Shown here piece after piece: positions 2,025-39,190 of a stretch of 64,000 nt of DNA (position 1 is the first letter of the stretch; each line of letters opens with the position of its first letter). A model generated the notes under the pieces. That model saw nothing but the letters and a program-made list of their open reading frames with translations. It searched no databases and was not told where the DNA came from. A program made the position numbers and the translations under genes. Source of the stretch: Petrimonas mucosa (GTDB lineage: Bacteria > Bacteroidota > Bacteroidia > Bacteroidales > Dysgonomonadaceae); the NCBI RefSeq assembly GCF_900095795.1, contig NZ_LT608328.1, forward strand, positions 2,721,001 through 2,785,000, given 5' to 3'.

Positions 2025-3494
2025 ATGCTGAATACAAATCATCTCCTCATCATCTACCTCTGCGCGACACTCTCTGTCGCCTGCACATCCGGCAAACCTG
2101 CCAATGGTACTGAAGATACCTTGCCGGATAAAGAGAGATCGATGCTCTACATCGAGAATGACCGGATAAAACTGGGAGTCGACCTTTCCCTGGGTGGAGC
2201 GGTCACCTACCTCTCCGACAAGGCAAATGGCGGGAAGAACATGATCAACAGTTATGACTGGGGCAGACAGATCCAGATGTCCTACTACAGCGGACCATGG
2301 CCATATATCGGTCCCAACGGGGAACGACCCGCACCTGAGTGGGAGGGGCTGGGATGGAACCCGATCCAGTCGGGCGACGCAGGTGGAAACCGTTCCAAGA
2401 TTGTTGCTTACGAAAAACGGGGCAACAATGCAATCTTCGTGAGCAGCATCCCGATGCAGTGGCCACACAAGAGTGGCGTACCGGGTGAGTGCCGGTTTGA
2501 ATGCCTCTATACCCTGACGGGCAACGTAATCACCATGGAGGCCACCCTGGTGAACCAGAGAGAGGACAAGAAACAGTATCGGGCCTGTCCGCAGGAGATG
2601 CCGGCAGTATATACCAACGGACCTTGGTACAAGCTGGTCACCTACCTGGGCGACAACCCCTTTGCCGATGAACCGGTTACCGTGATTGTCGACAAAAACA
2701 ACAAGAGAGGATGGCCCTGGGTCAACTTCTATACACCTGAAAACTGGGCAGCCTTACTCGACGACAACGGTTACGGAATCGGGGTCTTTCAACCGGAGGT
2801 GGTCAGGTTCAACGGCGGATTCCACCCCAACGATTCGTTCAAGGGGCATGGTGGTGAAAAAGATGGCCAGACAGGACATATTGCGCCTATCGGGAAAGAG
2901 ATCCTTGATCACAACATACGTCTGACCTATAAGACAACATTTATCCTCGGCACTCTCGACGATATCAGATCGTTTGTCCGGACCAACCGTACACGTCCCG
3001 ACAATCCCGTATGGGATTTCAGCCAGTCGCGCAACCACTGGTACTATCAGGGGGAAATCAGCGATAACGGCTTCCCGGTGAAGGAGGGCTTGGAGGTGCA
3101 ATTCGGGAAAGGGGGCTCACTCGTGGGCCCGGAGACCTTCTGGAAAGCAAGCAATGCAGCTTCTCTCGAGATCGAGGGCAGTTTTCTCACCACCAGCGGT
3201 ACCCTGGATATCACCGTTGAACTGCAGCCGGTAGGCAAGTCGGATTTCACCGACTGGTTAAACTGGAGCGAGGGGGAATTCAGCATGGAAGATGAAAAAC
3301 GGGAGAAGGCCGGACTATATCCCGAAAAACAGCCAATCGTAAAGCAGCAGCAGATCATCGCCGACGGGGTAAACCGGAGCTACCGGATCGGGCTGAACGA
3401 CATATCGGATTATCTTGAATCGATGAAGGGCATTAAGATCGCTTTCTCCGAAAAGGGAAACGCAACAATTAGAAGTATCCGGTTGACCCGGTAA
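2025..3494 (+). CDS. Secreted lipoprotein of unrecognised family, beta-sandwich type
   Basis: This is the first gene of the long operon, 489 aa, with a lipoprotein signal (LSVACTSG, Cys at about 20). Residues about 43-310 begin with NDRIKLGVDLSLGGAVTYLSD and continue with an NxxDWGRQIQMSYY segment. This resembles the opening strands of galactose-mutarotase-like beta-sandwich folds found in several lyases and glycosidases. From about 345 onward a second beta-rich domain (LEVQFGKGGSLVGPETFW) looks like a carbohydrate-binding module. I cannot assign a known enzyme family. It lies 31 nt upstream of the first GH99-like gene, so a role in binding or cleaving the same glycan is likely. The start gives a canonical signal peptide. 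Confidence 0.8.
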   Translation: MLNTNHLLIIYLCATLSVACTSGKPANGTEDTLPDKERSMLYIENDRIKLGVDLSLGGAVTYLSDKANGGKNMINSYDWGRQIQMSYYSGPWPYIGPNGERPAPEWEGLGWNPIQSGDAGGNRSKIVAYEKRGNNAIFVSSIPMQWPHKSGVPGECRFECLYTLTGNVITMEATLVNQREDKKQYRACPQEMPAVYTNGPWYKLVTYLGDNPFADEPVTVIVDKNNKRGWPWVNFYTPENWAALLDDNGYGIGVFQPEVVRFNGGFHPNDSFKGHGGEKDGQTGHIAPIGKEILDHNIRLTYKTTFILGTLDDIRSFVRTNRTRPDNPVWDFSQSRNHWYYQGEISDNGFPVKEGLEVQFGKGGSLVGPETFWKASNAASLEIEGSFLTTSGTLDITVELQPVGKSDFTDWLNWSEGEFSMEDEKREKAGLYPEKQPIVKQQQIIADGVNRSYRIGLNDISDYLESMKGIKIAFSEKGNATIRSIRLTR

Positions 3495-3525
3495 TAATTA
3501 ACAGAAAGCCAAAAAGAGATAGATT

Positions 3526-5340
3526 ATGAAACGGGCATTACAACGCAATTTACTCACTCTTTTCCTGATTTTGGGAACAACTTTTACCATCGCGGCACAA
3601 CAGGTAGACAGCGACCAGTGGTCGGCTACCGATGGACTTGGCAGAGGTGTCAGAACATACTCCGATGCCGGAGACAAACGGGAGAAGTTTGTCGCCATGT
3701 TCTATTGGACCTGGCACCAGGGAAAAGATGATACTACCACTACGGTAAAAAACATTACCGAGATTGTACGCAAGCACCCGGAAGCCATGAAGGACTATAA
3801 TCATCCGGCATGGGGGAAAGCAAAACCGGGCTTCTTTTACTGGGAGCAGCCATTGCTAGGTTACTACAAGACAACCGACCCGTGGGTACTGAGAAAGCAT
3901 GCTGAAATGTTGGCGGACGCCAAGGTTGATGTGGTCTTCTTCGACTGCACAAACGGAAGTCTCACCTGGATAGAGTCATATGAAGCGTTGATGAAAACCT
4001 GGGATCAGGCACAAAAAGAGGGTGTGAATGTACCGAAGATTGCATTTATGCTGCCTTTCGGCCCGGCTCCCCACTCGCTGGTATCACTGAGACAGCTCTA
4101 CCGGGACGTATACAAACCGGGAAGATATCAGAACCTATGGTTTATCTGGAAAGGAAAACCGGGAATCATGGCCTACCCCGACAACCTCACCGATTCGGAG
4201 GAGGATAAGGAGATTGCCAATTTCTTCACCTTCAGACCTGGTCAGCCGGACTATGTGGATGGTCCCAAACGGAAAGACCATTGGGCATGGCTCGAGAACT
4301 ATCCCCAGAAAGGATATGTGCCACAACCCGATGGCACGTTTGAACAGGTAGCCGTGGGAGTGGCACAGAATGCAGCTCCTGAAACCAACGGTCATTGCAG
4401 TGCTTTCAACCTGCCCGGCTCCCAGGGTAGGGACTTCTCCTTCAGGAACGGATTTGACCCAAGGGTCGACGGTTATCTCTACGGATGGAACTTTCAGGAA
4501 CAGTGGGATCGTGCCTTTGAGATTGATCCCGAACTGGTGTTTGTTACCGGATGGAATGAATATATCGCCGGTCAGTGGCTCCCCAAAGATGGCTGGACAG
4601 GAGATCCCTTCTCATTTGTGGATCAGTTTGACTGGAAACGGAGCAGAGATATCGAACCCAACAAGGGATGGGGAGACAAGGGGGATTCCTATTACCTGCA
4701 ACTGGTGGACAATGTAAGGAAATTCAAGGGGATGTCCCCACCTGCAAAAATCTCCGCCCCCAAGACCATCAAGATCGGAAAGCCCGGTCAGTGGGACGAT
4801 GTGGCTCCATCCTACAACCACTACAAAGGCAACACCTTCCATCGCGATCACCCCGGCAGGAACAACACCTACTATACCAACAATACCGGTCGCAACGACA
4901 TCGTCAAGGCTAAAGTGGCCAGGGATCAGGAATTTCTCTATTTCTACGTGGAGTGTGCCGAACCCCTTACCTCCAGAAAAGAGCGCAACTGGATGATGCT
5001 CTTTATCGATATCGACAGGGACAAATCTACCGGATGGAACGGTTACGACTACATCATCAACCGGCAGAGCCCGACCTCAAAGGAGGTGATCGTGGAAAAG
5101 AACGTCGGCAATCGATGGGAATGGGAAGAGGTGAAACGGGAGCGATATATTGTTGCCGGAAACCGGCTGGAGATCAAAGTAAATAGAGCAACCGTCGGAG
5201 TGAAGGGGAAAAGTCTCGACTTTGAATTCAAGTGGAACGACAACATGCAGGAGAATGGCAACATCATGGATTTCTACGTAAATGGTGATACTGCTCCTGG
5301 AGGAAGATTCAATTTTGTTTATTCGGAGAGCGCGAAATGA
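3526..5340 (+). CDS. GH99/GH71-like secreted protein with CBM9-like tail (paralogue 1)
   Basis: This 604-aa protein has a cleavable signal peptide (ends about IAAQ). Residues about 55-400 form a TIM-barrel module of the GH71/GH99-like superfamily, with MFYWTWHQG, DVVFFDCTN and FVTGWNEYIAGQW motifs. The WNE Glu is residue 345. In GH99 the second catalytic Glu stands three residues later, but here that position is Ala348, a change shared by paralogues at 20457 and 23692. Residues about 425-600 (FIDIDRDKSTGWNGYDY) resemble a CBM9-like sugar-binding domain. The stop overlaps the next start by ATGA, indicating translational coupling. The activity is unknown; an alpha-glycosidase acting on the rhamnose-rich substrate is my inference. 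Confidence 0.85.
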   Translation: MKRALQRNLLTLFLILGTTFTIAAQQVDSDQWSATDGLGRGVRTYSDAGDKREKFVAMFYWTWHQGKDDTTTTVKNITEIVRKHPEAMKDYNHPAWGKAKPGFFYWEQPLLGYYKTTDPWVLRKHAEMLADAKVDVVFFDCTNGSLTWIESYEALMKTWDQAQKEGVNVPKIAFMLPFGPAPHSLVSLRQLYRDVYKPGRYQNLWFIWKGKPGIMAYPDNLTDSEEDKEIANFFTFRPGQPDYVDGPKRKDHWAWLENYPQKGYVPQPDGTFEQVAVGVAQNAAPETNGHCSAFNLPGSQGRDFSFRNGFDPRVDGYLYGWNFQEQWDRAFEIDPELVFVTGWNEYIAGQWLPKDGWTGDPFSFVDQFDWKRSRDIEPNKGWGDKGDSYYLQLVDNVRKFKGMSPPAKISAPKTIKIGKPGQWDDVAPSYNHYKGNTFHRDHPGRNNTYYTNNTGRNDIVKAKVARDQEFLYFYVECAEPLTSRKERNWMMLFIDIDRDKSTGWNGYDYIINRQSPTSKEVIVEKNVGNRWEWEEVKRERYIVAGNRLEIKVNRATVGVKGKSLDFEFKWNDNMQENGNIMDFYVNGDTAPGGRFNFVYSESAK

Positions 5341-7460
5341 GACGAAGTTACCCAACCGCCCTTTTTCTCCTCCTGCTGACGCTAAGTGTAAGCTGCGGCA
5401 AGGAGAGTGGCAGATACTTGAGTTTCGACCGGCAGTCGGCCAATCACCTGGCCATTGACTCGCTCAATGGGAACCAGTTTGGCATTACCACCCTTGGAAA
5501 CGACCCCTATGTCACGCTGAAGGAGCAGGATCTGTCGCCCGCCGACGGAAAAACGGTGCTCACCTTTGAATACATCAGCGAGAAAGGGGTAAACTTCATG
5601 GAGATATATTTTCTCACACGGGAGACAGGCTCCGTTGGATCGAATGTGGCAGGCATGCTGAAATGCCCTGGATTGATACCGGCCGGTGAGATGACCAGTT
5701 ACTCGGTCGACCTGGGCGAGGCCGTTGCAAAGGCCAACTGGAACCCGGAGAAGGATCTGTTGCGGATCGATTTTGGAGATCAGCCCGATACCCGGGTCAC
5801 TATCCGGAATATCCACTTCCGTAGACGCAACAGGGCTGAAGATGCCATCTTCAAGGAGTGGGAGGCTTTCAGGGTATCCGACAGGCAACAGAACAACCGG
5901 TTGGAGGGTTACCTTTCCACTACCTATCCCGCATCGATTACCCGGGTAGAGGTGTACGATTCCACGATCCTCATCCAGGGAAATGTTGATGCCGGCAAAG
6001 GCAGCAGGCTGCTCTGTGCAGTAAGGCCCTGGGAGAGTCCCCTCAACGCCGGAGAGCTTGATGGTACGGAAATAACCGGGAAATCCTTCACCGTGGAGAG
6101 ACCCAGGTATGAGGAGATCGACGGATTCAACTATGATCACGCACTCTCCAGATGGATGATTGCCGGCAAAGAGGGGATCCTCTCATCGGCCCGTTATGCC
6201 GACAGCATCACCCCACGGGAGATGATGCCGAAAGGGGTCCTGAAGGGGAGAAAGGGCATCGGAGGATACCATATTTCAAGGGGACACAGCTCCGATCTTG
6301 TAGATATCCCGGTCACCAGTATCACGGTCAATGTCTGGCTCTCCCGTTTCCTCCATCTCGACAGGAAGGAGAACACCATCGAACACCGGTTCAATGGGAG
6401 GAGCTACTATTTCGATGCCAAGGTGGTGGATGGTTACGACAAGACACTTTTAGAGGCACTCAAACATGATATTGTAGTTGCCGCGATCATTCTGGTGAAT
6501 TCGGCAGATCAATCTGCCGACCCGAAGGTAGGCGAACTGCTTCAGGATGAGAACTTCGGTGGAGAACATGCATTCTATACAATGCCCAACATGGGCTCTG
6601 CCGAAAGCGTACACTGTTATGCGGCCGCACTGGATTTTCTGGCCAGCCGCTACAGCAGGAAGGACAACAAGTTCGGACGTATCCACCACTGGATTATCCA
6701 TAACGAAGTGGATGCCGGCAACGTATGGACCAATATGGGAGATGACAGGCCCCTGCAGGTCTTCCTGGATGCATACCACAGGTCGATGCGGCTCTGCTAC
6801 AACATCGCGCGCAAATACGATGCCAACAGCGAGGTGCTGGCCTCCTTCACCCACTCCTGGTCTGAACCGGTACCGGTAGATGGTGACTATGCCACACTCG
6901 ACCTGCTCAAGGGTTTGTTGAAATATTCGGCAGTAGAGGGTGACTTCCGGTGGGGCATTGCCTACCACCCCTACCCGGAAGACCTGAATGAGCCCAAAAC
7001 ATGGAACGACCGCTCGGCCACCTTTTCCATGAATAGTCCGATGATCACCTTCAAGAATCTTGAGGTGTTGGACAGATGGATCAAACAGCCGGAGAACCTC
7101 TACCTGGGCTCGCAGAAGAGAACGGTCTGGCTGTCGGAGAACGGCACCAACTCCCGCACCTATGGCGAACAGGACCTGAAGGAGCAGGCAGCCGGCTTCG
7201 CATATGCATGGAAGAAGATGAAGCATCTGGACGGGATTGATGCGTTTCAATGGCACAACTGGATGGATGGACGAGGTGAATTCGGCCTCCGGATCGGCCT
7301 TCGAAAATACCCCGACGATGAGAACGATCCAGCGGGCAAAAAGCCGGTATGGTACCTCTATCAGGCAGCCGACACTCCACAGGAAGATAAAGTTTTTGAA
7401 CCCTACAAATCGGTTATAGGAGTCAGTGATTGGTCTGAAGTGTTGCATGAAGTAAAATAA
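5337..7460 (+). CDS. DUF5722-like putative clan GH-A glycosidase, lipoprotein
   Basis: The 707-aa product has a lipoprotein signal (LSVSCGKE). The N-terminal part (about 28-165) is a beta-sandwich of carbohydrate-binding type. The C-terminal part (about 290-690) looks like a TIM barrel related to DUF5722: IIHNEVDAGNVW places Glu457 as the likely acid/base and WLSENGTN places Glu601 as the likely nucleophile, 144 residues apart as in clan GH-A retaining enzymes. The DUF5722 assignment is from memory of the family. The start overlaps the previous stop by 4 nt, and the next gene starts 4 nt after its end, so it is fully embedded in the operon. Confidence 0.75.
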   Translation: MRRSYPTALFLLLLTLSVSCGKESGRYLSFDRQSANHLAIDSLNGNQFGITTLGNDPYVTLKEQDLSPADGKTVLTFEYISEKGVNFMEIYFLTRETGSVGSNVAGMLKCPGLIPAGEMTSYSVDLGEAVAKANWNPEKDLLRIDFGDQPDTRVTIRNIHFRRRNRAEDAIFKEWEAFRVSDRQQNNRLEGYLSTTYPASITRVEVYDSTILIQGNVDAGKGSRLLCAVRPWESPLNAGELDGTEITGKSFTVERPRYEEIDGFNYDHALSRWMIAGKEGILSSARYADSITPREMMPKGVLKGRKGIGGYHISRGHSSDLVDIPVTSITVNVWLSRFLHLDRKENTIEHRFNGRSYYFDAKVVDGYDKTLLEALKHDIVVAAIILVNSADQSADPKVGELLQDENFGGEHAFYTMPNMGSAESVHCYAAALDFLASRYSRKDNKFGRIHHWIIHNEVDAGNVWTNMGDDRPLQVFLDAYHRSMRLCYNIARKYDANSEVLASFTHSWSEPVPVDGDYATLDLLKGLLKYSAVEGDFRWGIAYHPYPEDLNEPKTWNDRSATFSMNSPMITFKNLEVLDRWIKQPENLYLGSQKRTVWLSENGTNSRTYGEQDLKEQAAGFAYAWKKMKHLDGIDAFQWHNWMDGRGEFGLRIGLRKYPDDENDPAGKKPVWYLYQAADTPQEDKVFEPYKSVIGVSDWSEVLHEVK

Positions 7461-7464
7461 GAAG

Positions 7465-9864
7465 ATGAATATGCGATTGATATTTTTGACCTTAATTACC
7501 CTTTTTTCAACTGGCAGTCTCTTCGCAACCGACAGTAACACTCTCCCCATCGTGCCCAAACCGCAACAGGAGATGGTTACAGGCGAAGAGATCACGGTCG
7601 GCAGCCACTGGAAAATCTACATCGATCGGGAGGCGACGGGAAGTTCAACCTATATGACGGAGCTCCTGAAAGGGTGCGGCGTGGAGCCCTCCATTACTGA
7701 ACAGCGGAACGAGGCTAACCTGATACTTGCTATCGACAAGAAGATCTCAAAAAATCGGGAGGCTTACCGCATATCGGTTTCCGCCAGGGGAGAGATCCAG
7801 GTATCTGCAACCACACGCAATGGACTGCTCCATGCCCTCCAGACCCTCCGGCAGCTGATCAACTGTCAGGCAAACGGGATTACTATTCCCGTTTGCCGCA
7901 TCATCGACGAGCCGGCCTTCTCCTGGCGTGCATTCATGCTGGATGAGAGCCGGCACTTTCATGGAATGGAAATGGTGAAGAAGCTCCTGGATGAGATGAG
8001 CTACCTGAAACTGAACACTTTCCATTGGCACCTGGTAGATGATCCCGGATGGAGAATCGAGATCAGGAAATACCCGGAACTGACAACCATCGGATCGAAA
8101 CGCGATTTCTCGCACCGGGAGTTGACACCGGCCCAGTGGGATGAACAGTTTCCCGGGAAAAAGATGTACTATACACAGGACGAGATCCGCGAGATCGTGC
8201 AATATGCAGATGAGCGGGGAATCCAGGTTGTTCCCGAGATCGAGGTACCCGGCCATGCATCCGCCTCCATCGCAGCCTACCCTTGGCTCGGGGCAAGCAG
8301 CAAGCGTCAGGGAAAGGGTGTTTGGGGAGATCTTTACAACGTCACTAACCCTGAAGTAGAGGCTTTTATCCACGACATCCTGGATGAGATGATCACACTG
8401 TTCCCCTCGAAGATCATCCATATCGGCGGCGACGAAGCCAATTATACCCATTGGGCGAATAATCCGGAGATCGTACAGTTCATGAAGGATCAAAAGATAC
8501 CTACCTATGCCGACCTGCAGGTATGGTCGATTAACCGGCTCTCCAACTACCTGGCATCAAAAGGGGTCCGCACGATGGGATGGAACGAGATCACCGGAGA
8601 CAACATCCGCGGTGAGGCACATCTCGAAGCGAGCCAATCCGAAAAACTGGCCAAAGGGACATTGGTTCATTTCTGGGACGGAGACATCGGACTGATAAAC
8701 AAGGCCATCAACGAAGGATACAGTGTGGTGAACTCCAACCGACACTATACTTATCTCGACTACCCCTACGAGGTGACCCCGCTGGAGAAGGCCTACTCCT
8801 TCCATCCGGTACCGGACGGCATCGCAGGAGAGAAAGTGGGTGCAATTGTCGGACTCGGTTGCCAGATGTGGGGAGAGTACACCCCCAACCAGACCCGGAT
8901 CTACTATCAGACGTTTCCACGTATTGCCGCCTATGCAGAATGCGGATGGACAAAGGCCGAAGATAAAAACTACGACGAGTTCCGCCACCGCATGAAAAAG
9001 ACCGAACGCCGATGGCGGAAAATGGGTTACATCAACCAGCAACCGACCTACACCAGGCAGGACGACACCTTTACCTTGTGGCAGCTGCCATCACAGATCA
9101 ACACCATCGGCAATTCGTACATCATACGTACCGATGATGGCAAGGTGATTGTAATCGATGGCGGAGTCAAGGAGGAAGAGGGATACCTGCGCGGTTTTAT
9201 CGGAGCCTTGGGAAACATTGTCGATTGCTGGTTCGTCACCCATCCTCATCCCGACCATATCGGAGCCCTTACCCGCATATTGGAAAATCCCAAGGGAATA
9301 GGGGTGCGGCAAATCTGCCACTCCACATTTTCCGATTCACTGCTTAACGGTGAACCCAATTACAAGGGAGAGGCACTTAACTATTACGAAGCGGCAAAAA
9401 AATCGGGCGCTACCGTGACCGAAGCGACATTGGGCATGACCTTCGCATTCGGACAGACCACCCTCCGTATACTCGGCATCAAGAATGAAGAGCTGAAAAG
9501 TAACCCCTATAACAATTCGAGCATGGTCATCAAGGTCTGGGATCCGCTGAAATCGGTGCTCTTCCTCGGTGATCTGGGAAAAGAGTCGGGCGACAAGCTG
9601 CTCTATGGACCTTATCGCGATCAACTGGACTGCGATTATATTCAGATGTCGCACCACGGACAGAGTGGCGTATCGATGGATTTCTACCGTACGGTGAAGT
9701 TTCGCGCCTGTCTGTGGCCTACTCCCACCTGGGTATATGACAACGATGCCGGAAAAGGGTTCAACACCCATATCCTTACAACGATAGAGACACGCAATAC
9801 CATTGAAGCTCTGAATATTTCGGAAAACTACCTCAGTTTTGAAGGAGTGACAAGGATCGATTAA
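7465..9864 (+). CDS. GH20 beta-N-acetylhexosaminidase fused to a metallo-beta-lactamase domain
   Basis: This 799-aa secreted protein (signal peptide ends about SLFA) begins with the GH20b N-domain (about 28-145: PIVPKPQ, TTRNGLLHALQTLRQL). The GH20 catalytic barrel follows (about 150-520) with the HIGGDE signature; Asp323 and Glu324 are the expected substrate-assisted catalytic pair. After about residue 545 a complete metallo-beta-lactamase fold follows: IDGG, the metal-binding THPHPDH (His593, His595, Asp597, His598), LFLGDLG and MSHHG (His730). Normal GH20 enzymes end before this point. The reading frame is uninterrupted, so the fusion is not an annotation artefact. The barrel should release terminal beta-GlcNAc/GalNAc; the MBL part may hydrolyse an ester, lactone or phosphodiester on the same glycan. 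It precedes rhaM by 19 nt. Confidence 0.9.
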   Translation: MNMRLIFLTLITLFSTGSLFATDSNTLPIVPKPQQEMVTGEEITVGSHWKIYIDREATGSSTYMTELLKGCGVEPSITEQRNEANLILAIDKKISKNREAYRISVSARGEIQVSATTRNGLLHALQTLRQLINCQANGITIPVCRIIDEPAFSWRAFMLDESRHFHGMEMVKKLLDEMSYLKLNTFHWHLVDDPGWRIEIRKYPELTTIGSKRDFSHRELTPAQWDEQFPGKKMYYTQDEIREIVQYADERGIQVVPEIEVPGHASASIAAYPWLGASSKRQGKGVWGDLYNVTNPEVEAFIHDILDEMITLFPSKIIHIGGDEANYTHWANNPEIVQFMKDQKIPTYADLQVWSINRLSNYLASKGVRTMGWNEITGDNIRGEAHLEASQSEKLAKGTLVHFWDGDIGLINKAINEGYSVVNSNRHYTYLDYPYEVTPLEKAYSFHPVPDGIAGEKVGAIVGLGCQMWGEYTPNQTRIYYQTFPRIAAYAECGWTKAEDKNYDEFRHRMKKTERRWRKMGYINQQPTYTRQDDTFTLWQLPSQINTIGNSYIIRTDDGKVIVIDGGVKEEEGYLRGFIGALGNIVDCWFVTHPHPDHIGALTRILENPKGIGVRQICHSTFSDSLLNGEPNYKGEALNYYEAAKKSGATVTEATLGMTFAFGQTTLRILGIKNEELKSNPYNNSSMVIKVWDPLKSVLFLGDLGKESGDKLLYGPYRDQLDCDYIQMSHHGQSGVSMDFYRTVKFRACLWPTPTWVYDNDAGKGFNTHILTTIETRNTIEALNISENYLSFEGVTRID

Positions 9865-9883
9865 CAATTAAATAAAAAATAAC

Positions 9884-10198
9884 ATGAAACGCGTAGCTTT
9901 TAAAATGTATCTGAAACCGGGATTCAGCGAGGAGTATAGAAAGCGGCATGCCGAGATCTGGCCCGAGTTGAAAGCACTCTTATCGCAAAACGGAGTGGAA
10001 GATTATTCCATTTTCTGGGATAAGGAGACCAATGTATTGTTTGCAGTACAGAAGAACCATGGAGAACAATCCTCCCAGGAGATCGGCACCAACCCGATCG
10101 TGCAGAGATGGTGGGACTTCATGGCGGATATTATGGAGGTAAACGATGACAACTCTCCTGTCTCCATCGAACTGGAAGAGTTGTTTCACATGGATTGA
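9884..10198 (+). CDS. rhaM: L-rhamnose mutarotase
   Basis: The 104-aa protein matches the RhaM family over its whole length: MYLKPGFSEEYRKRHAEIWPEL near the N-terminus, VQRWWDFMADIMEV in the second half and an L..LFHMD end (first motif shown in part). RhaM interconverts alpha and beta anomers of L-rhamnose in the cytoplasm, feeding rhamnose isomerase. There is no signal peptide, unlike its neighbours. Placement between secreted glycosidases is the strongest clue that L-rhamnose is the main sugar released by this operon. Confidence 0.93.
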   Translation: MKRVAFKMYLKPGFSEEYRKRHAEIWPELKALLSQNGVEDYSIFWDKETNVLFAVQKNHGEQSSQEIGTNPIVQRWWDFMADIMEVNDDNSPVSIELEELFHMD

Positions 10199-10202
10199 AA
10201 AA

Positions 10203-10261
10203 CCTGCACGCTGCCTGTCCGCGCCGATCCGGACAAACAAGACAGGGTAAGTGGCGGCAGG
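10203..10261 (+). other. Potential RNA hairpin between rhaM and the next gene
   Basis: In an 88-nt gap, nested inverted repeats are visible: CCTGC (10203-10207) with GCAGG (10257-10261), and CCTGTC (10214-10219) with GACAGG (10241-10246). TGTCCG/CGGACA is an alternative inner pairing. No U-run follows, so this is not a clear terminator; it may tune mRNA stability between the short rhaM and the long downstream gene. Confidence 0.35.
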
Positions 10262-10286
10262 TTGGATACTTAAAAAAAATACCGAT

Positions 10287-13157: not shown

Positions 13158-13162
13158 GAAAA

Positions 13163-14247: not shown

Positions 14248-14257
14248 TAGGAAAAAT

Positions 14258-17107: not shown

Positions 17108-17166
17108 GAGAGTTATCGTTGAAATATGGAAATATTTGAAAACAACTAAACATAAGAGAAAACAGT

Positions 17167-20424: not shown

Positions 20425-20456
20425 ATCTTAATTTTATCACACAAAAAAAGCCTATT

Positions 20457-22487: not shown

Positions 22488-22501
22488 TCCGATCAATCAA
22501 T

Positions 22502-23686: not shown

Positions 23687-23691
23687 AAAAA

Positions 23692-25467: not shown

Positions 25468-25487
25468 AAAAACCATAATAGATTATC

Positions 25488-26669: not shown

Positions 26670-26676
26670 AGCCATC

Positions 26677-30249: not shown

Positions 30250-30273
30250 GAGAATCAACCTATTCGATTAAAT

Positions 30274-31215
30274 ATGACCAGTATATCAAAACATATATTC
30301 CTCCTCTCCCTCCTGTTCATCTTTTCTCTCCAGGGCTTCTCCAGTTTTGTCGCCGTTGAGGGCAAAGGCCGGGGAAGCAGACCCGACAGGCCGGTGAAAC
30401 AGGCCACATTACCGCTCTTTCCTCCAGTAAAGGAGCAGATGGAGGAGGTTCATCGCAACGACTCCCTCTTCGGACTGCTGGTGAGCAAGGTGACCAATCC
30501 CACCCTCTCCCTCTTTATCCCCCAGGAGGGGGTCAAGCTGAAAAGTGCCGTGATCATCTGCCCCGGTGGTGGTTATCACACCCTGCTCATGGAAAGGGAA
30601 GGGAGCCAGGTGGCAGAGAGGTTTGCCCGGGAGGGCGTTGCCGCCTTTCTTCTCAAGTACCGGCTTCCGGGTGAAGAGACCGGAGTAACCGACCCCTTGG
30701 CACCCTTGAAAGATGCACAGCGTGCCATCCGGATGGTTCGGGAAAATGCCGACGCCTGGGGAATCGACCCGTCGAAGGTGGGGATCATGGGATTTTCTGC
30801 CGGCGGTCATCTGGCAGCCACGCTGGGAGTACATTACAACACTGGGATGGAGAGACCCGACTTTCTTATCCTAGTCAATCCCGTCATCAGCTTTGACAGT
30901 GAGACCGGCCATTCCGGATTGCGCAGCATCCTGCTGGGAGAAAACGAGTCGGAAGAACTGGTGCAGTTCTTCTCCAATCAACTCCACGTCAGCAGTAAAA
31001 CACCAAGAAGCATCCTTTTTCATACAGACGATGATCAGGTAGTTTCGGTCATGAACAGTTTTCTCTTTTACCGGCAACTGCACCACCATGGTATCCCTGC
31101 CGAGTTGCACATCTACTCCAGAGGTGATCATGGATTTATCCAGTTCCCGGAATTTGAAGAGTGGTTTCCACGTCTTATCCGATGGATGTCGATGGAGAAA
31201 TTAATAAATAGATAA
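30274..31215 (+). CDS. Secreted alpha/beta-hydrolase esterase (acetyl-xylan-esterase-like)
   Basis: The 313-aa protein has a signal peptide (FSLQGFSSFVA). It belongs to the BD-FAE/acetyl esterase branch of alpha/beta hydrolases: oxyanion motif CPGGGYH, nucleophile elbow GFSAGG with Ser175, acid within HTDDDQVV (Asp252-254) and His286 in GDHGF. It probably removes acetyl or other acyl groups that block the glycosidases. Lengths and motif spacing are normal for the family. Confidence 0.88.
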   Translation: MTSISKHIFLLSLLFIFSLQGFSSFVAVEGKGRGSRPDRPVKQATLPLFPPVKEQMEEVHRNDSLFGLLVSKVTNPTLSLFIPQEGVKLKSAVIICPGGGYHTLLMEREGSQVAERFAREGVAAFLLKYRLPGEETGVTDPLAPLKDAQRAIRMVRENADAWGIDPSKVGIMGFSAGGHLAATLGVHYNTGMERPDFLILVNPVISFDSETGHSGLRSILLGENESEELVQFFSNQLHVSSKTPRSILFHTDDDQVVSVMNSFLFYRQLHHHGIPAELHIYSRGDHGFIQFPEFEEWFPRLIRWMSMEKLINR

Positions 31216-31228
31216 CATATAACTAGCT

Positions 31229-34200
31229 ATGATGTACAGACAAGTAATGAAGAAATTATCAATCAAAGGCCACCGCCGGGTTGTCGGCTCCTTTTATCTC
31301 TGCCTGCTCACCCTGTTACTGGGAGGTTGTGCTGTAAACAACACAAAAAAACAGGAACCGGAGCAATTGATGCAGAAGGCAGTTCCTGTATGGGCCGAGG
31401 GGCGTGAGAAGGAGATGAACCTTACCCTGGGATTTCGCGGGGTCATTGAGACCACCCCGCAATCGCAAACTGTCCTGCAGATTGCTGCCTCCACCGTTTA
31501 CCGGGTCTTCCTCAACGGTGAATTTGTGGGATCGGGACCTGCCCGCGCCGGTCACGGCTATTACCGGGTAGACCGGTATGACCTTTCCGACCGGGTAAGG
31601 AGCGGCGAGAATATCGTGGCAATTGAAGTGGCCGGATACAACATCAACACCTTCTACACCATCGACCAGCCCTCCTTTTTGCAGGCCGAGGCAACGGTGA
31701 ACGGCAAGGTGGTGCTGCATACCGGCGACAACGACCAATTCGAGGCGACCGAGATCAGGGAGCGACTCCAGAAAGTGGAGCGTTATAGCTATCAACGGCC
31801 GTTTACCGAGTATTACCGGCTGGAAGAGGGATACGACCGGTGGAGATCGGATAAGGGTCAAGCCCTGAAAAAGGTCAAACTGACACAACAGCCAAAGGTT
31901 AATCTTCTGCCACGTGGTGTAGATCACCCCACCTATACCATGCTGAGACCGGTAAAGCAATACTCCAAGGGAACCTTTACCAAGCAAATTCCCAAGAGTT
32001 ACCGCAGAGACCGGTCGCTGGTCAATATCAGTGAAAAGCTCAAGGGGTATACCGTAGCAACATTGGAGGTAACTCCCTCACAACGGATCCAGGAGTTGCA
32101 AACGGTAACCCGGGAGCGGCTGAATACTCCCTATACCGGCTCCTCTCCGATTGTCGTTGGAGAGAGTGAATTTTCAATTCTCGATTTCGGCATCAACCAG
32201 ACCGGATTCATCGGTGCTGTAGTCCGCTGCAGCGAACCTACCGAGCTGTGGTTTCATTTCGATGAGATGTTGACCGACGACGATGTGATCAGCAAGAGAC
32301 GGATGTCGGATGTCAACAACCAGGTGGTATATGAACTCCAACCTGGGGAATATCACATCGAGTCGTTCGAACCCTACACCTTAAAATTCCTGAAGATCAT
32401 GGTAACCAAGGGTGCCTGTCAGGTAGCGGATATCTACCTGAGGGAGTTTGCTTCGCCTGAAAACCCGAATGCCACCTTCACAAGCAGCAATGAAAAGCTA
32501 AACCGGATCTACGATGCGGCCAAACAGACCTACCGTCAGAACGCCCTCGACATCTTTATGGACTGCCCCTCGAGGGAACGTGCCGGCTGGCTATGCGACA
32601 GCTACTTCACGGCAATCATGGAGAAGGAGTTCACCGGAGCATCCAAAGTGGCCTACAACTTTTATCAGAACTACGCACTGCCCGAGAAGTTCGAATTCCT
32701 TCCGGAAGGTATGCTTCCGATGTGTTATCCCGCCGATCACTACAATGGGGATTTTATCCCCAACTGGACGCTCTGGTTCATCATCCAGATCGACGATTAT
32801 GCTCAAAGGGGTGGCGACCCGAAACTGGTGGCCGACCTGCAGGAGAGGATCTCCGATCTGCTGAAATATTTCGAGAGGTTCGAGAATGAAGATGGATTAC
32901 TGGAGAAGCTAGAGAGCTGGATATTTGTGGAGTGGTCAAAAGCAAACAGCCTGGTACAGGATGTGAACTATCCCACCAACATGCTCTACAGCTCCGCGCT
33001 CGAGAGTGCCGCCCGTCTATACGGCCGCGAAGAGTGGAAGAGAAAGTCTGAACATCTCCGCGATCAGATACTGAAGCAGTCCTTTAACGGCGAGTTCTTT
33101 ATTGACAATGCCGTCAGGGAGAACGGCAAGTTGAAGGTGACCGACCAGATCACCGAAGTGTGTCAATATTACGCCTTCTTCTTCAATGTAGCCACTCCGG
33201 AGAGCCACCCCGCCCTGTGGAAAAAGCTGACGGAAGAGTTCGGACCCAACCGGGATACCGAGACCACCTATCCCCACGTTGCCATTGCCAATGCATTTAT
33301 CGGCAATTACCTCCGGGTGGATATCCTTTCACGGTATGGGCTTCAGGAACAACTGATCTCGGAGATTGAGGAGTATTTCTTCTATATGGCCGAACGGACC
33401 GGCACCCTCTGGGAGAATGTCCACAGCCAGGCCAGCTGCAATCACGGTTTTGCCTCCTATATCGCCCATGTGCTGTATCGCGACGTACTCGGCATCAGCA
33501 ATATCGACTATCTCGACAACAAGGTCACGATCAGGTTTACCGATCTCGATCTGGACCACTGCAGCGGCTCCATTCCCGTGGGAAGTGAAGTGATCAGGCT
33601 TGAATGGAGAAAAGCGGGAGAGCAGATCCTCTATCGCCTGCAGGTTCCCTCCGGTTACGAAGTGACGGTTGAAAACCGGAGCAAATACCGGCTGATCGAT
33701 CTGGAGAGCAAGGAGTATAAACAGACAAGGCTCTATCCGACGGAGCTGACCACCGAGTATCTGACCAATCCAACAGGCCTGGATGTCCGGGATCCGCGTT
33801 TCAGCTGGAAGCTAACCACTACAGACCGGCAGGCATTTGGACAGCTGCAAACGGCCTACCGTATTCTGGTGAGCACGTCGAAAGAGGATCTCGACAAAGA
33901 GAGGGGCAATGTATGGGATACCGGCTGGATCTCATCAGACAAGATGCAACTTGTCAGCTATCAGGGGAAACCGTTGCAGTCAGATCAGACCTACTTCTGG
34001 AAAGTGGCGGTCAAGGATGAAAAGGGAATTCCCTCAACATTCAGTGAAACGGCCTCATTTACTACCGGGCTGTTCAGCGAGACGGAGTGGAGGGCAAAGT
34101 GGATCGGCACCCGGGAGATCTACGATCCTGCAGCCGGTCCCAACAAGATCTATGATCCCTGGTTCAGGAAGTCGGTCAACCTGACCGGGAAACCTGCCAA

Positions 34201-36439
34201 GGCCACCCTCTTTGTGGCATCGGTAGGTTATCACGAAGTCTACGTGAACGGCCTGAAAATCGGCGACCATGTACTGGCACCCGCAGTAACCGACCATACA
34301 CAACGTGCACGCTACATTGCCTACGATATTGCACCGGCATTGGAAGAGGGGACAAATGTAATTGCAATCTGGCTAGGTACTTCCTGGTCGATCTTCGCAC
34401 CCTATGCAACCCCCGACAAACCCAGGACACCTATTGTGACGGCCCAGGGCGACATCTTCGGCAAGAGAGGTGAAAAACTGGCCAGCATCATCACCGACGA
34501 GTCGTGGAAAACACATCCTAGTCCCAACAAGCTGATCGGCAACTGGGGATTCGGCGTTGGCGGATATGGCGGAGAGATATGGGATGCCAACAAGGAGATC
34601 GAGGAGTGGAACCTGGCAAGCTACAACGACCAGTCATGGAGCAATGCAACGGTCTATAACCCAGCATTGAAGATCTCTGCCCAACGTGTGGAACCTAACA
34701 GACTCTCTGCCGAGATTAAACCTGTCGCAATAGAGAGCCGCCCCGACGGTACATACCGGATCGATATGGGAGTCAATTTTGCTGGATGGACCGAAATTGC
34801 CGTGGAAGGGAAGCCGGGCGACACGATCAGCTTCCAGTTCTCAGAGCGGCAACAGGATGATATGACCTTCGGCTTGCATAACCTCTACGTGGTTGGACCT
34901 TCAGGCAAGGGGACCTTCAGGAACAGGTTCAATTACAGTTCCGGAAGATGGATTACGGTAAAGGGACTCACATCGGCTCCTGCAATGGAGGATATCAAAG
35001 GGTGGATGGTACGGACCGACTATGCTGACGCCACCTCCTTCACATGCTCCGACCCGTTGCAAAACTGGATCTACAATACCGTCAACTGGACATTCGAGAA
35101 TCTCTCCCTTGGCGGGTACATCGTGGACTGTCCGCAGCGTGAACGGTTCGGGTATGGCGGTGATGCCCATGCCACCTCCGAAACCGGAATGCTCAACTAT
35201 AGCCTGGGCGCCTTCTACAACAAATGGCTTGAAGATTGGCGGGATGTGCAGGGAACCGAACCGATGGTTGGAAACATGAACGACCCCAGCTGGGCGAGGA
35301 GACAGGAGGGGAGTGGCAGGAAGCTCGGCGGAGGGATTCTCCCCCAGACAGCTCCCACCTACCATGGCGGTGGTGGACCGGCCTGGGGTGGAATTGTGGT
35401 CACCCTACCCTGGTTCATGTACCAGTATCAGGGCGACCTGCGTGTCCTGGAGGAGAATTTCGAGATGATAAAAGGATGGCTCGCCTTTCTGGATATTCAT
35501 GTCGAAAACAACCTGTTGAAACGCTATGGCGGACAGTGGGACTTTCTGGGCGACTGGCTCTGGCCAGGGGCAACGGCGCAGGGGATGAACAACTATTCCG
35601 ACGAAAACCTCTTCTTCAACAACTGTTACTGGATTTACAACCTGAAAACGGCGGCGAAGGTGGCCGAAACCATTGGGAGGAGGGCTGAAGCCGGAAAATG
35701 GAAACGTCAAGCCGAAATATCTTCCCAGGCTCTTCACGACAAATATTACCATGCCGATGACCATAACTATTCCGATCGGACCATGCGGAGTCTTTCGGCT
35801 GCGCTCTATGGAGATATCATGCCCCAAGAGATTCGTCCACTGGTGATGCAACGGCTGGAAAGAGAGATTCTGCTCAACCGGAACGGCCATATCGATGTGG
35901 GAATCACCGCAGGAGCGATGCTTTTCAAGGTGTTGCGCGAAGAGGGTCGTGACGACCTTATCTATGCCATGACCTCACAGACCACTTACCCCAGCTGGGG
36001 ATTCATGCGCGAGAACGGCGCCACCACCATCTGGGAGATGTGGGAAAAGGATCTTCCCGGACACTCCCTGCTTCACAGCTCCTACCTCTATCCCGGGGCA
36101 TGGTACATCGATGGCGTTGGCGGCATCAGGAGAAGGGACGATTCACCCGGATTCAGGAAGGTTGATATCCGTGTTCCGAAATTACCGGAAGAAAAGCTAT
36201 CTTGGGCAAAGACACGTTTCAACTCCCCGGCCGGCACGATCGAGTCGTACTGGAAAAGAGAAAACGGAAAAACCATGCTTGTAGTAACTGTTCCGCCCAA
36301 CTGCTCGGCTACGGTCTATTTCCCCGATGAAACAGGCAGGAGCATACGTGAAAACTCCGGTTTGGCAAAAGTGGCCGGCAAGAAGAATGGATACCGGCTG
36401 TTTGAAATATCTTCAGGAAACTATATCTTTGAGAATTAA
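31229..36439 (+). CDS. Tandem double GH78-type alpha-L-rhamnosidase, lipoprotein
   Basis: One frame of 1736 aa contains two complete rhamnosidase-like enzymes behind a single lipoprotein signal (LLLGGCAV). Module 1 (about 45-830) has a rhamnosidase beta-sandwich and an (alpha/alpha)6 barrel with MDCPSRERAGW (Asp445, Glu450); it lacks the fibronectin-like N-domain. Module 2 (about 835-1736) starts again with that domain (TTEYLTNPTGLDVRDPRFSW), has its own sandwiches (FVASVGYHEVYVNG) and a barrel with VDCPQRERFGYGGD (Asp1300, Glu1305). Both motifs are slightly different from the classic QRDERxGW, so the two sites probably have different specificities. Normal GH78 enzymes are about 900 aa. The start is one of several Met codons (31229, 31247); all precede the same signal. 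Confidence 0.9.
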   Translation: MMYRQVMKKLSIKGHRRVVGSFYLCLLTLLLGGCAVNNTKKQEPEQLMQKAVPVWAEGREKEMNLTLGFRGVIETTPQSQTVLQIAASTVYRVFLNGEFVGSGPARAGHGYYRVDRYDLSDRVRSGENIVAIEVAGYNINTFYTIDQPSFLQAEATVNGKVVLHTGDNDQFEATEIRERLQKVERYSYQRPFTEYYRLEEGYDRWRSDKGQALKKVKLTQQPKVNLLPRGVDHPTYTMLRPVKQYSKGTFTKQIPKSYRRDRSLVNISEKLKGYTVATLEVTPSQRIQELQTVTRERLNTPYTGSSPIVVGESEFSILDFGINQTGFIGAVVRCSEPTELWFHFDEMLTDDDVISKRRMSDVNNQVVYELQPGEYHIESFEPYTLKFLKIMVTKGACQVADIYLREFASPENPNATFTSSNEKLNRIYDAAKQTYRQNALDIFMDCPSRERAGWLCDSYFTAIMEKEFTGASKVAYNFYQNYALPEKFEFLPEGMLPMCYPADHYNGDFIPNWTLWFIIQIDDYAQRGGDPKLVADLQERISDLLKYFERFENEDGLLEKLESWIFVEWSKANSLVQDVNYPTNMLYSSALESAARLYGREEWKRKSEHLRDQILKQSFNGEFFIDNAVRENGKLKVTDQITEVCQYYAFFFNVATPESHPALWKKLTEEFGPNRDTETTYPHVAIANAFIGNYLRVDILSRYGLQEQLISEIEEYFFYMAERTGTLWENVHSQASCNHGFASYIAHVLYRDVLGISNIDYLDNKVTIRFTDLDLDHCSGSIPVGSEVIRLEWRKAGEQILYRLQVPSGYEVTVENRSKYRLIDLESKEYKQTRLYPTELTTEYLTNPTGLDVRDPRFSWKLTTTDRQAFGQLQTAYRILVSTSKEDLDKERGNVWDTGWISSDKMQLVSYQGKPLQSDQTYFWKVAVKDEKGIPSTFSETASFTTGLFSETEWRAKWIGTREIYDPAAGPNKIYDPWFRKSVNLTGKPAKATLFVASVGYHEVYVNGLKIGDHVLAPAVTDHTQRARYIAYDIAPALEEGTNVIAIWLGTSWSIFAPYATPDKPRTPIVTAQGDIFGKRGEKLASIITDESWKTHPSPNKLIGNWGFGVGGYGGEIWDANKEIEEWNLASYNDQSWSNATVYNPALKISAQRVEPNRLSAEIKPVAIESRPDGTYRIDMGVNFAGWTEIAVEGKPGDTISFQFSERQQDDMTFGLHNLYVVGPSGKGTFRNRFNYSSGRWITVKGLTSAPAMEDIKGWMVRTDYADATSFTCSDPLQNWIYNTVNWTFENLSLGGYIVDCPQRERFGYGGDAHATSETGMLNYSLGAFYNKWLEDWRDVQGTEPMVGNMNDPSWARRQEGSGRKLGGGILPQTAPTYHGGGGPAWGGIVVTLPWFMYQYQGDLRVLEENFEMIKGWLAFLDIHVENNLLKRYGGQWDFLGDWLWPGATAQGMNNYSDENLFFNNCYWIYNLKTAAKVAETIGRRAEAGKWKRQAEISSQALHDKYYHADDHNYSDRTMRSLSAALYGDIMPQEIRPLVMQRLEREILLNRNGHIDVGITAGAMLFKVLREEGRDDLIYAMTSQTTYPSWGFMRENGATTIWEMWEKDLPGHSLLHSSYLYPGAWYIDGVGGIRRRDDSPGFRKVDIRVPKLPEEKLSWAKTRFNSPAGTIESYWKRENGKTMLVVTVPPNCSATVYFPDETGRSIRENSGLAKVAGKKNGYRLFEISSGNYIFEN

Positions 36440-36463
36440 TAAATAATAAACTGTACTAATTTT

Positions 36464-39190
36464 ATGAGACACACCATTTTATTCACTGCAATCCTACTAT
36501 CCGTTCTCTTGGTCGGATGTAGCGGAGGGAAGTTAAAGGTAACCTCCCTCAAAGTAGAGATGCAGGAAAATCCGGTAGGACTGAACACCCTTGCACCACG
36601 GTTTTCCTGGCAAATAAGCTCAACAACACCCGATCTGGTTCAGCAATCTTACCAGATTCAGGTTGCCCTGACGGAAGAGGAGCTGAAAAAGGGTATCAAT
36701 CTGTTGTGGGATTCGGGAGTTGTCGATAGCGACCTATCTGTACTTATCCCCTACCGGGGAGAATCCCTCGTGTCGAGAGGCAAATATTACTGGCGCGTAA
36801 AAGTAAACAGCAACCAGGGCAGTAGCGACTGGAGCAAAATCGCTCATTGGTCGATGGCACTGCTGGACGATTCGGACTGGCAGGCCAAATGGATCGGTGA
36901 GGATTCACTCTCCAATCCCGGCGAGACAGCTGCGAAAAACACAAGATTGGCCGCACGCTACCTGAGGAAACCGTTCGAGGCGAACAAGGGTAACATTCAA
37001 AGTGCCGTCATCTATGTTTCGGGACTTGGATCCTATGAAGCCTACCTTAACGGAAAACGGGTTTCGGAAGATGTACTGGCTCCTACCGTCTCCTGGTATC
37101 CCAACCGTGTCTACTACAACACTTTCGACGTAACTCCCCTTGTGAAGAAGGGTGCGAATCTGCTGGCCGTCAAGCTGGGTAACGGCAGATTTTTCGGGAT
37201 GCGTGAATCTCCCACCCAGGTGTTTGGATTGCCCCGCCTGCTGGCTCAACTCGAGATTGAATATGCCGACGGTTCCAAAGAGGTGATCGTCAGTGATGAA
37301 ACCTGGAAAGTGACCTCAAAAGGTCCTATCGTTGCCAACAACGAGTTTGATGGAGAGGAGTACGACGCCCGCCTCGAACTTGCCGGATGGGAATCTGCAG
37401 GCTACGATGACTCCTCCTGGCTCCAGGCAGATATCATGGATGCGCCCGGAGGCAAGCTCACAGCCCAAACCAACCCCAATCTCAGGGTAATGGAAGAGAT
37501 CAAGCCGGTAAGCATCACCCCTCTTTCTGACGGCAAGTTTATTCTCGACATGGGACAGAACATGGTGGGATGGCTGAAGGTCAACAACCTGAACGGGAAA
37601 AAGGATCAGCCAATAACGTTCCGTTTTGCCGAGATACTGAATCCCGACAGCACCATCTATCTGGCAAATATCCGCTCTGCGAAGGTGACCGATATCTATA
37701 CTCCTGCCCGTGACGGAGCGTTCAGCTGGGAACCCTCTTTTGTATACCACGGCTTCCGTTTTGTTGAGATCTCGGGATTGGATGAAGAGCCCGCATTGAG
37801 CAACTTCACCGGGAAGGTGGTCTACGACAGGATGGAGACTACCGGATGGTTCGAAACCTCAAATCAGGTTATCAACCAGACCTTCAAGAATGCCTACTGG
37901 GGAATCAGGGGCAACTATCGTGGAATGCCCACCGACTGTCCGCAACGCGATGAACGGCAAGGCTGGCTAGGTGACAGGGCAACCGGATGTTTCGGTGAAG
38001 CATTCATTTTCGACAATGCTCACCTCTACAGCAAATGGACACAGGATATTGAGGATTCTCAAAGCCCAGAGGGAAGCATCTCGGTGGTTTCACCCCGCTA
38101 CTGGACCATCTATCATGACGACGTAACCTGGCCGGCAGCCTATTTCTACGCCGCAAAGATGCTCTACCACCAGTATGGCGATAGTGAACCGATCCGGAAA
38201 CATTACGCTTCGATGAAGCGCTATCTGGAGCGCGTTCAGGAGGTATCCATGCAGGATTTCATTCTTACCAAGGATGCTTATGGCGACTGGTGTATGCCGC
38301 CCGAAAGGCAGGAGCTGATTCACTCGCAGGATCCTGCACGCAAGACTGCCGGTGCGGTGCTGAGCACCACCATGTACTACAGTTTGCTCAATCTGATGGT
38401 GGAATTTGCACAATTAACAGGAAACGAGCAGGATATCCCCGGATTCCAGGAACTTGCAGGCAAGATAAGGGAGGCATACAATGCACGGTTCTTCAATGCG
38501 GACTCGGCAAAATATGACAACAACACGGTAACGGCCAATATCTTGTCGCTCCAGCTGGGTCTGGTTCCCGAAGGGAAGGAGCAACAGGTATTCGACAATA
38601 TCGTACAGAAAACCGAAGTTGACTTCGACGGACATGTAAGCACGGGAGTGCTGGGTATCCAGCAGTTGATGCGTGGGCTGACACAGCACGGAAACGTTGA
38701 TTTGGCTTACAAGATCGCCACAAACGAAACTTACCCGAGCTGGGGTTACATGATCAAGAAAGGAGCCACCACCATCTGGGAACTCTGGAACGGTGATACT
38801 GCAGACCCTGCGATGAACTCGGCCAACCATGTCATGTTGCTGGGCGACCTGATCATCTGGTATTACGAAGATCTGGCCGGAATCAAAAACTATCCTGGCA
38901 GCGTAGCCTACAAGAAATTGTGGATGGAGCCCAAGTTCCCCGAAGGCTTGAGTCATGTAAAAGCTTCGTACAAGTCGGCATACGGTGAAATACGAAGCGA
39001 ATGGAGCAGAGAGAACGGCAAGTTCAGCTGGAATATCACCATCCCGGGCAACTCCTCGGCCGTGGTTAAATTGCCAAAAGAGCTGCAGATCGCGACACCC
39101 GATCAACCCGGCGTAAGAAACGTAACGGAGACCGAATCGGGGATCGAGATAGTACTGGGATCCGGCAGCTATACATTAGTCTCCAAATAA
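36464..39190 (+). CDS. GH78 alpha-L-rhamnosidase, lipoprotein
   Basis: This 908-aa enzyme is the most canonical GH78 in the cluster and the last operon gene. A lipoprotein signal (VLLVGCSG) is followed directly by the fibronectin-like domain (LKVEMQENPVGL...APRFSWQI), the sandwiches (YVSGLGSYEAYLNG, FILDMGQNMVGW) and the barrel with TDCPQRDERQGWLGD (Asp491, Glu497). The C-terminal domain ends with a PGNSSAVVKLP sandwich. It hydrolyses terminal alpha-L-rhamnose with inversion. No strong hairpin terminator is visible after it. Confidence 0.94.
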   Translation: MRHTILFTAILLSVLLVGCSGGKLKVTSLKVEMQENPVGLNTLAPRFSWQISSTTPDLVQQSYQIQVALTEEELKKGINLLWDSGVVDSDLSVLIPYRGESLVSRGKYYWRVKVNSNQGSSDWSKIAHWSMALLDDSDWQAKWIGEDSLSNPGETAAKNTRLAARYLRKPFEANKGNIQSAVIYVSGLGSYEAYLNGKRVSEDVLAPTVSWYPNRVYYNTFDVTPLVKKGANLLAVKLGNGRFFGMRESPTQVFGLPRLLAQLEIEYADGSKEVIVSDETWKVTSKGPIVANNEFDGEEYDARLELAGWESAGYDDSSWLQADIMDAPGGKLTAQTNPNLRVMEEIKPVSITPLSDGKFILDMGQNMVGWLKVNNLNGKKDQPITFRFAEILNPDSTIYLANIRSAKVTDIYTPARDGAFSWEPSFVYHGFRFVEISGLDEEPALSNFTGKVVYDRMETTGWFETSNQVINQTFKNAYWGIRGNYRGMPTDCPQRDERQGWLGDRATGCFGEAFIFDNAHLYSKWTQDIEDSQSPEGSISVVSPRYWTIYHDDVTWPAAYFYAAKMLYHQYGDSEPIRKHYASMKRYLERVQEVSMQDFILTKDAYGDWCMPPERQELIHSQDPARKTAGAVLSTTMYYSLLNLMVEFAQLTGNEQDIPGFQELAGKIREAYNARFFNADSAKYDNNTVTANILSLQLGLVPEGKEQQVFDNIVQKTEVDFDGHVSTGVLGIQQLMRGLTQHGNVDLAYKIATNETYPSWGYMIKKGATTIWELWNGDTADPAMNSANHVMLLGDLIIWYYEDLAGIKNYPGSVAYKKLWMEPKFPEGLSHVKASYKSAYGEIRSEWSRENGKFSWNITIPGNSSAVVKLPKELQIATPDQPGVRNVTETESGIEIVLGSGSYTLVSK

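Follow-up and report, generated by a model that had tools for sequence, protein, structure and literature searches.

The window analysed here comprises 64,000 nucleotides (positions 2,721,001–2,785,000) of the 3,717,632-bp chromosome of Petrimonas mucosa ING2-E5A (LT608328; family Dysgonomonadaceae), a common biogas-reactor bacterium, and carries a run of sixteen genes, W01 to W16, rich in predicted rhamnosidases. With a probability of about 0.9, this run is the 3′ part, about two-fifths, of one polysaccharide utilization locus (PUL). The same-strand set to which W01–W16 belong, and of which they make up the 3′ two-fifths, spans chromosome positions 2,663,966–2,760,190, that is 96.2 kb and 39 plus-strand genes (the interrupted SusC3 gene counted once). 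This locus is of an ordinary kind, but unusually large and full of mobile elements. An earlier note, made from the window alone, had reported that no SusC/SusD genes lie in it and had concluded that the enzymes rely on uptake genes elsewhere. Indeed no SusD match was found in the window, because the window starts 13 kb too late; the apparent anomaly of a missing transporter is thus false and explained by the window edge.

The longest open frames starting with ATG, GTG or TTG were taken as genes, those of 80 amino acids (aa) or more being considered, and Pfam was run on each called gene of the locus of at least this length. By this calling the locus starts at 2,663,966, about 59 kb upstream of the window run, and the boundaries 2025–39190 proposed in the earlier note proved too narrow. 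The genes before this position do not look like glycan enzymes when the starts of their sequences are judged by eye. The whole locus contains eight GH78-type genes (nine modules), two GH106 genes, four SusC/SusD pairs, a CotH gene, two GH127 genes and one GH43 gene. In addition, it contains two DUF5722 enzymes, a GH130-like protein, a trio of GH99-like paralogues, a WbsX protein and a GH20 enzyme fused to a metallo-beta-lactamase-fold (MBL) domain, together with a PHP-domain protein, an esterase, the rhaM gene and a sugar isomerase. As regards the features by which a PUL is recognized, four same-strand SusC/SusD pairs, with SusC3 interrupted, lie upstream of the window, and the glycan-active enzymes are co-located and co-directional with one minus-strand gene and mobile elements in between.

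According to Pfam, the first eight genes (U01–U08, plus strand from 2,663,966) are three full GH78 genes and isomerase-like, GH43, GH78-like, GH31-like and GH106 genes. They are followed on the same strand by SusC1-SusD1, SusC2-SusD2, SusC3-SusD3 and SusC4-SusD4. The search for SusD matches placed the four SusD genes at chromosome positions 2687729–2707732, the one nearest to the window ending at 2,707,738, 13.3 kb short of it and therefore within the 20 kb upstream of position 1 where the earlier note had advised looking. The proposed reliance on uptake genes elsewhere fails, since the four pairs share the strand of the gene run and relatives keep both halves contiguous. That note had also held that a SusC/SusD pair and a regulator immediately upstream would make this an ordinary locus; the pair is there, and a regulator was not found in the locus. 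SusC1 and SusD1 are closest to SusC3 and SusD3, and SusC2 and SusD2 to SusC4 and SusD4, as would result from the duplication of a double pair. SusD2 and SusD4 (760 and 747 aa) exceed the called lengths of SusD1 and SusD3 (596 and 632 aa) by 115–164 residues. After SusD4, genes U17–U23 encode an F5/8C protein, CotH, a GH127 protein, a DUF4832/GH42-like protein, a DUF5722 enzyme, a second GH127 protein and the GH130-like protein, and U23 ends at window position 305. The nearest solved relatives of the two GH127 proteins are named beta-L-arabinofuranosidase or six-hairpin glycosidase, and one of them, U19, also gives a weak secondary GH88 match.

That the two halves form one locus is argued firstly by the relatives. 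In two Proteiniphilum contigs the upstream genes are directly followed by window genes: L023 has U20-U21-U22-U23-W02-W03-W04 in order and L025 has U21-U22-U23-W02-W03-W04, both without W00 and W01. In a genome from another genus of the family (G016, contig C28), two SusC/SusD pairs are contiguous with window-type enzymes in a single run, SusC3-SusD3-SusC4-SusD4-U17-GH99-like-CotH-DUF5722-GH127-GH130-like-W02-W09, which also argues for one locus. The same conclusion is favoured by one stretch of P. acetatigenes (L024), where GH20-MBL, GH78 and GH106 genes are joined to a SusC gene at 84% identity. In addition, a W09-type gene of genome G182 adjoins a SusD gene, in line with two SusC/SusD pairs, and in G315, by coordinates alone, a W09-type gene has SusD matches at a distance of about 9 kb or less. 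Secondly, the gene families are concentrated in the locus: GH78 hairpin matches number 12 in the whole genome, 11 above the cut-off, and nine of these 11 are inside, as are both DUF5722 genes of the genome, which again speaks for a single locus. The GH78 genes flank the SusC/SusD block on both sides. GH106 is less concentrated, with two of nine open frames (11 matches genome-wide) inside.

The minus-strand gene W00 (459–1559), GH42-like and of lipoprotein type (Pfam GH42, E 7.1e-5), lies inside the locus, and together with a 1.7-kb gap it stands between U23 and W01. It was considered as a separator of two unrelated loci and rejected: in G287, G105 and L033 its relatives are neighbours of the same enzymes, and in the Proteiniphilum contigs L023 and L025 the run continues through this point with no such gene.

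A further argument for one locus is a domain of about 150 aa common to SusD2, SusD4 and the two DUF5722 enzymes U21 and W03 (BLASTP E 5.5e-12 to 5.8e-5), which recurs on both sides and has no fifth copy in the genome. It is N-terminal in both enzymes, spanning about residues 20–164 in W03 and about 384–542 in SusD4, and its places are window positions 5394–5828 (W03), 7884–8336 of the stretch L004, and 1644–2120 and 10811–11269 of the stretch L005. No Pfam model was found for it. A profile made from the four copies matched four places in the genome, all inside the locus. Among 30 other genomes, three gave matches to this profile (G016, G008 and G010), and in G016 these are again in a SusD4 relative and a DUF5722 relative. 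The domain is also carried by a phosphodiester glycosidase (NAGPA) in the relative L026 (2828–5098).

As the earlier note had claimed, positions 2025–39190 of the window hold sixteen plus-strand genes. The first of them, W01 (2025–3494, 489 aa), matches no Pfam or NCBIfam model and is followed by W02 (3526–5340), a GH99-like trio member with a weak GH99 match (E 0.0012). Next come the DUF5722 enzyme W03 (5337–7460, Pfam E 2.1e-125), whose N-terminal domain is the one shared with SusD2 and SusD4, the GH20-MBL fusion W04 (7465–9864), the L-rhamnose mutarotase gene rhaM or W05 (9884–10198, E 1.1e-30) and W06, a 968-aa frame (10251–13157, likely start 10287) that is also without any Pfam or NCBIfam match. 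W07 (14258–17107) is a GH78 gene. W08 (17167–20424) belongs to GH106 (E 5.4e-230) and matches the solved GH106 sequences 6q2f, 5mqm and 5mwk. W09 (20457–22487) and W11 (23692–25467) are the other two trio members, paralogues of W02 and of each other without Pfam matches of their own. Between them, W10 is a WbsX/GH99-type protein (E 1.1e-52), probably starting at 22502 in a frame open from 22382 and ending at 23686. Downstream are the PHP-domain gene W12 (25488–26669, E 1.8e-7, with a CehA/McbA-type model below its cut-off), the GH78 gene W13 (26677–30249), the BD-FAE esterase gene W14 (30274–31215, E 3.4e-23), the double GH78 gene W15 (31229–36439) and the last gene of the locus, the GH78 gene W16 (36464–39190), whose best solved relatives are rhamnosidases.

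Pfam agrees with the earlier note on the five rhamnosidase genes (GH78 at 14258, 26677, 31229 and 36464, and GH106 at 17167), on rhaM (9884), the GH20-MBL fusion (7465), the esterase (30274) and the PHP protein (25488), and the GH99-like genes W02, W09 and W11 are paralogues as it had said, with 32–36% mutual identity. Its double GH78 gene is the one at 31229: two six-hairpin stretches are present, the second one, in the N-terminal half, being weaker; this half matches solved rhamnosidase sequences. The motif DCPxR-E, which carries the general acid of GH78, is found in seven of the nine GH78-type modules of the whole locus, those of U01 and U06 lacking it by the pattern used. The statement that the run has no regulator, transporter, sulfatase or polysaccharide lyase also stands by Pfam, W01 and W06 being without any match. 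Its short gaps are true of all intervals (59 bp or less) except one of 1,100 bp between W06 and W07, where the note had overlooked an insertion element.

This element, of IS1595 type (13162–14248, minus strand), has its transposase gene at 13168–14121 (Pfam) and is bounded by 25-nt inverted repeats (13162–13186 and 14224–14248). Examined by eye, its flanks show TAGGAAAA on both sides, the left copy beginning in the W06 stop codon, and therefore W06 and W07 would have almost abutted before the insertion. In the genome, 20 places match the DNA of the element, this copy being one of them. A second copy lies between SusC1 and SusD1 (chromosome about 2685674–2686759) and, judged by eye from its flanks, appears to have inserted within the initial codons of SusD1; the called start of this gene would then be internal. 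SusC3 (chromosome 2695750–2700408) is divided into two parts with a Mutator-type transposase gene in the middle, and SusD2 is separated from SusC3 by another transposase gene. Of the four import pairs, two may thus no longer function. Beyond the locus, a 303-aa frame at window positions 43581–44492, whose first 45 residues recur unchanged at chromosome positions 2610464, 2624750 and 2644391, is probably another multi-copy insertion element.

Several of the enzymes belong to poorly described families. In the DUF5722 enzyme W03, Glu457 and Glu601 are invariant in the five aligned sequences, in NE and SENG motifs, as would be expected in a clan-A-like retaining glycosidase. The predicted structure of W03 was poor (predicted local distance difference test, pLDDT, 49; predicted template modelling score, pTM, 0.42) and was not used. 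A literature search for DUF5722, and another for WbsX with glycoside hydrolase, found no papers.

GH99 enzymes depend on the two glutamates of an EWxE motif. The trio carries the motif NE[WYF]xAG, in which Glu345 and Ala348 (W11 numbering) are invariant in 11 of 11 sequences; the first glutamate is therefore kept, whereas alanine stands where W10, with NEWSEG, has the second one. Likeness to GH99 and WbsX is seen in the weak W02 match, which at 18.5 bits is below the family cut-off of 33 bits (W09 and W11 giving none), and in a profile comparison that aligns the WNE motifs of the trio and WbsX (E 0.0011, probability 20%), which is a hint only. An AlphaFold2 model of W11 made with 11 sequences (pLDDT 68, pTM 0.76) had no match at E ≤ 0.001 when it was compared with the PDB by Foldseek. 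The chains found with a probability of 0.96–1.00 were CBM9, an ethylbenzene dehydrogenase subunit and similar ones, over 120–170 columns, and would correspond to the C-terminal sandwich of the model; the comparison did not identify its catalytic part. When the sequences of W09, W11, W06 and W03 were compared with those of the PDB, no match had an E value below 0.3.

The distribution of the trio is patchy. Of 295 genomes of the order, 15 have W11 relatives, and of 61 genomes, 10 have W09 relatives, the own genome being included in both counts; W09 relatives were not found in the nine further genomes of the same genus that were searched. W06 is rarer, with matches in three of 393 genomes of the order, again with its own. 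In L023 the place of rhaM and W06 is taken by a 561-aa protein (12422–14107) that looks GH140-like by sight. W04 retains the DE pair of GH20 and the motif HPHPDH. It is matched over both parts in the Proteiniphilum-like contigs L023, L024 and L032, the match in L025 being cut by the contig end. The match stops at residue 519–536 in L026–L031, and only the MBL part is matched in L033, L034, L035 and L042.

From these families a mechanism can be proposed. The DUF5722, GH99-like and WbsX proteins, as surface enzymes, would open the polymer in an endo step, and the oligosaccharides would enter through SusC. Afterwards, exo-enzymes would strip rhamnose (GH78 and GH106), beta-linked N-acetylhexosamine (HexNAc; GH20), L-arabinofuranose (GH127 and GH43) and acyl groups (esterase), and the released sugars would be handled in the cytoplasm by RhaM and the isomerase. 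The shared domain may bind the target glycan, in the SusD lids as well as in the DUF5722 enzymes. As substrate, a branched heteropolysaccharide rich in rhamnose and also containing HexNAc is probable. GH20 suggests HexNAc and hence argues against a purely pectic target, since pectins are not known to contain any, and the two GH127 enzymes together with GH43 suggest arabinose. Because of the predicted HexNAc, the surface glycan of a microbe or alga has a slight advantage over pectin, although the evidence is compatible with a bacterial surface glycan, a microalgal wall or a plant glycan.

Simple rhamnogalacturonan I (RG-I) or homogalacturonan, and ulvan, were considered as substrates and rejected. 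For the former a polysaccharide lyase, GH28 or GH105 would be expected, and for the latter ulvan lyase and sulfatases; Pfam found no polysaccharide lyase, GH28, GH105 or sulfatase among the scanned genes of the full locus. Against this rejection stand the weak GH88 match of U19, the matchless W01 and W06, and GH88-family and sulfatase-fold genes in the relative G321. The rhamnose- and hexosamine-containing glycan of the earlier note, distinct from simple RG-I and ulvan, thus survives the extension to the full locus, to which GH43 and the two GH127 genes are new.

An alternative of some weight, although we hold it to be the less probable one, is that the locus targets pectin side chains of RG-I, rhamnogalacturonan II (RG-II) or arabinogalactan. 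Section 3.4 of the genome paper (PMC7768429) interprets the GH78 and GH106 genes of PULs as pectin-degrading, and the same text assigns GH78, GH106 and GH43 of P. mucosa PULs to pectin. The two GH127 genes and the GH43 gene are consistent with this, the solved relatives of GH127 including beta-L-arabinofuranosidases, as is the GH140-like appearance of the gene in L023. The families specific to RG-II are GH137–GH143, and GH127 and GH106 alone are not specific to RG-II. However, Pfam gives the locus none of the lyase, GH28 and GH105 enzymes named above, only the weak secondary GH88 match of U19, and GH20 points to a sugar that, from what is known of the families, pectins lack. Compared with the Bacteroides pectin PULs for RG-I and RG-II, the P. 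mucosa locus shares GH78, GH106 and GH127, but differs in lacking these same pectin-degrading families by Pfam and in having GH20-MBL, DUF5722, WbsX and the GH99-like trio.

It is unlikely, although conceivable, that the target is a bacterial surface polysaccharide bearing rhamnose, HexNAc and phosphodiesters, such as a Gram-positive rhamnose wall polymer. The fusion of GH20 to an MBL domain, the PHP protein and the NAGPA of L026, which has the SusD-type extra domain and lies beside WbsX, W11 and GH20 genes, are consistent with it. Nevertheless, many other activities are found with the MBL and PHP folds, the locus of P. mucosa contains no NAGPA gene, and the arabinose enzymes would be left unexplained. 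Equally doubtful is a joint reading in which a private glycan-binding domain has spread into two SusD lids and the DUF5722 enzymes, the trio is a new glycosidase family and the target is a phosphodiester-bearing rhamnose/HexNAc bacterial glycan. If this were true, the MBL and PHP folds, and NAGPA in the relative, would be the phosphodiester-cleaving parts.

Returning to the reading of the run as part of one PUL for a rhamnose-rich glycan, the following points weigh against it. No regulator was found among the Pfam-scanned genes of the locus, ECF (extracytoplasmic function) sigma and anti-sigma factors not having been searched genome-wide. The substrate is deduced from family names. In G321 (L091), a GH88-family gene (5405–6601) and a sulfatase-fold gene (7002–8240), with rhaM between them, lie between SusC/SusD genes and GH106, WbsX, W09 and W11 genes. 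SusC/SusD homologues were seen in only two of 19 related stretches anchored on GH20-MBL (L024 and L029), two of seven (G321 and G016) and one of 20 (G182), many of these stretches being short contigs and the SusD2 matches in L026 and G311 not being counted, since the protein is NAGPA with the extra domain. The whole genome of G105 has no SusD match at E 1e-6 among the matches listed. The run is disrupted by the minus-strand gene at 459–1559 and by several mobile elements, one SusC gene at least being interrupted. Finally, the profile of the shared domain was built from the same four places that it finds, and only the absence of a fifth is informative. From these comparisons the enzymes can occur without SusC/SusD in some relatives, but do not in P. 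mucosa. Alternatively, the window genes could form an enzyme operon of their own that happens to follow a SusC/SusD locus unrelated to it and is served by uptake genes elsewhere. W00 with its 1.7-kb gap, the lack of SusC/SusD in most related stretches examined and the trio-bearing G105 with no SusD among the matches listed speak for this, but it is very improbable given that no minus-strand gene interrupts L023 and L025 at the place of W00, two SusC/SusD pairs of G016 are linked to W02 and W09 within a single run, W03 shares its domain with SusD2 and SusD4, and GH78 genes stand on either side of the SusC/SusD block.

The nearest match to Y_Y_Y, of the hybrid two-component system (HTCS) type, is at 2,329,154, about 335 kb upstream of the locus. 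The genome paper reports 39 PULs in the P. mucosa genome, about 46% of which have regulator genes (PMC7768429); a PUL without a regulator is therefore not unusual in this organism. According to the same paper, SusC proteins of PUL_02, 10, 11, 24, 29 and 31 occur in biogas metaproteomes. Apart from this paper, no title or abstract start in the literature listings describes the locus. Like Bacteroidota PULs in general, it joins SusC/SusD pairs to co-directional glycoside hydrolases, an esterase and sugar-catabolic genes, whereas its 96 kb, its four SusC/SusD pairs, the lack of any regulator found and its several internal mobile elements set it apart.

Worth keeping from this analysis are the uncharacterised enzymes tied to the rhamnosidases, namely DUF5722 and the GH99-like trio, which are conserved in relatives, and the rarer W06. 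The domain common to SusD2, SusD4 and the DUF5722 enzymes would offer a direct, testable handle on the glycan that P. mucosa takes up by means of the largest GH78 cluster of its genome.

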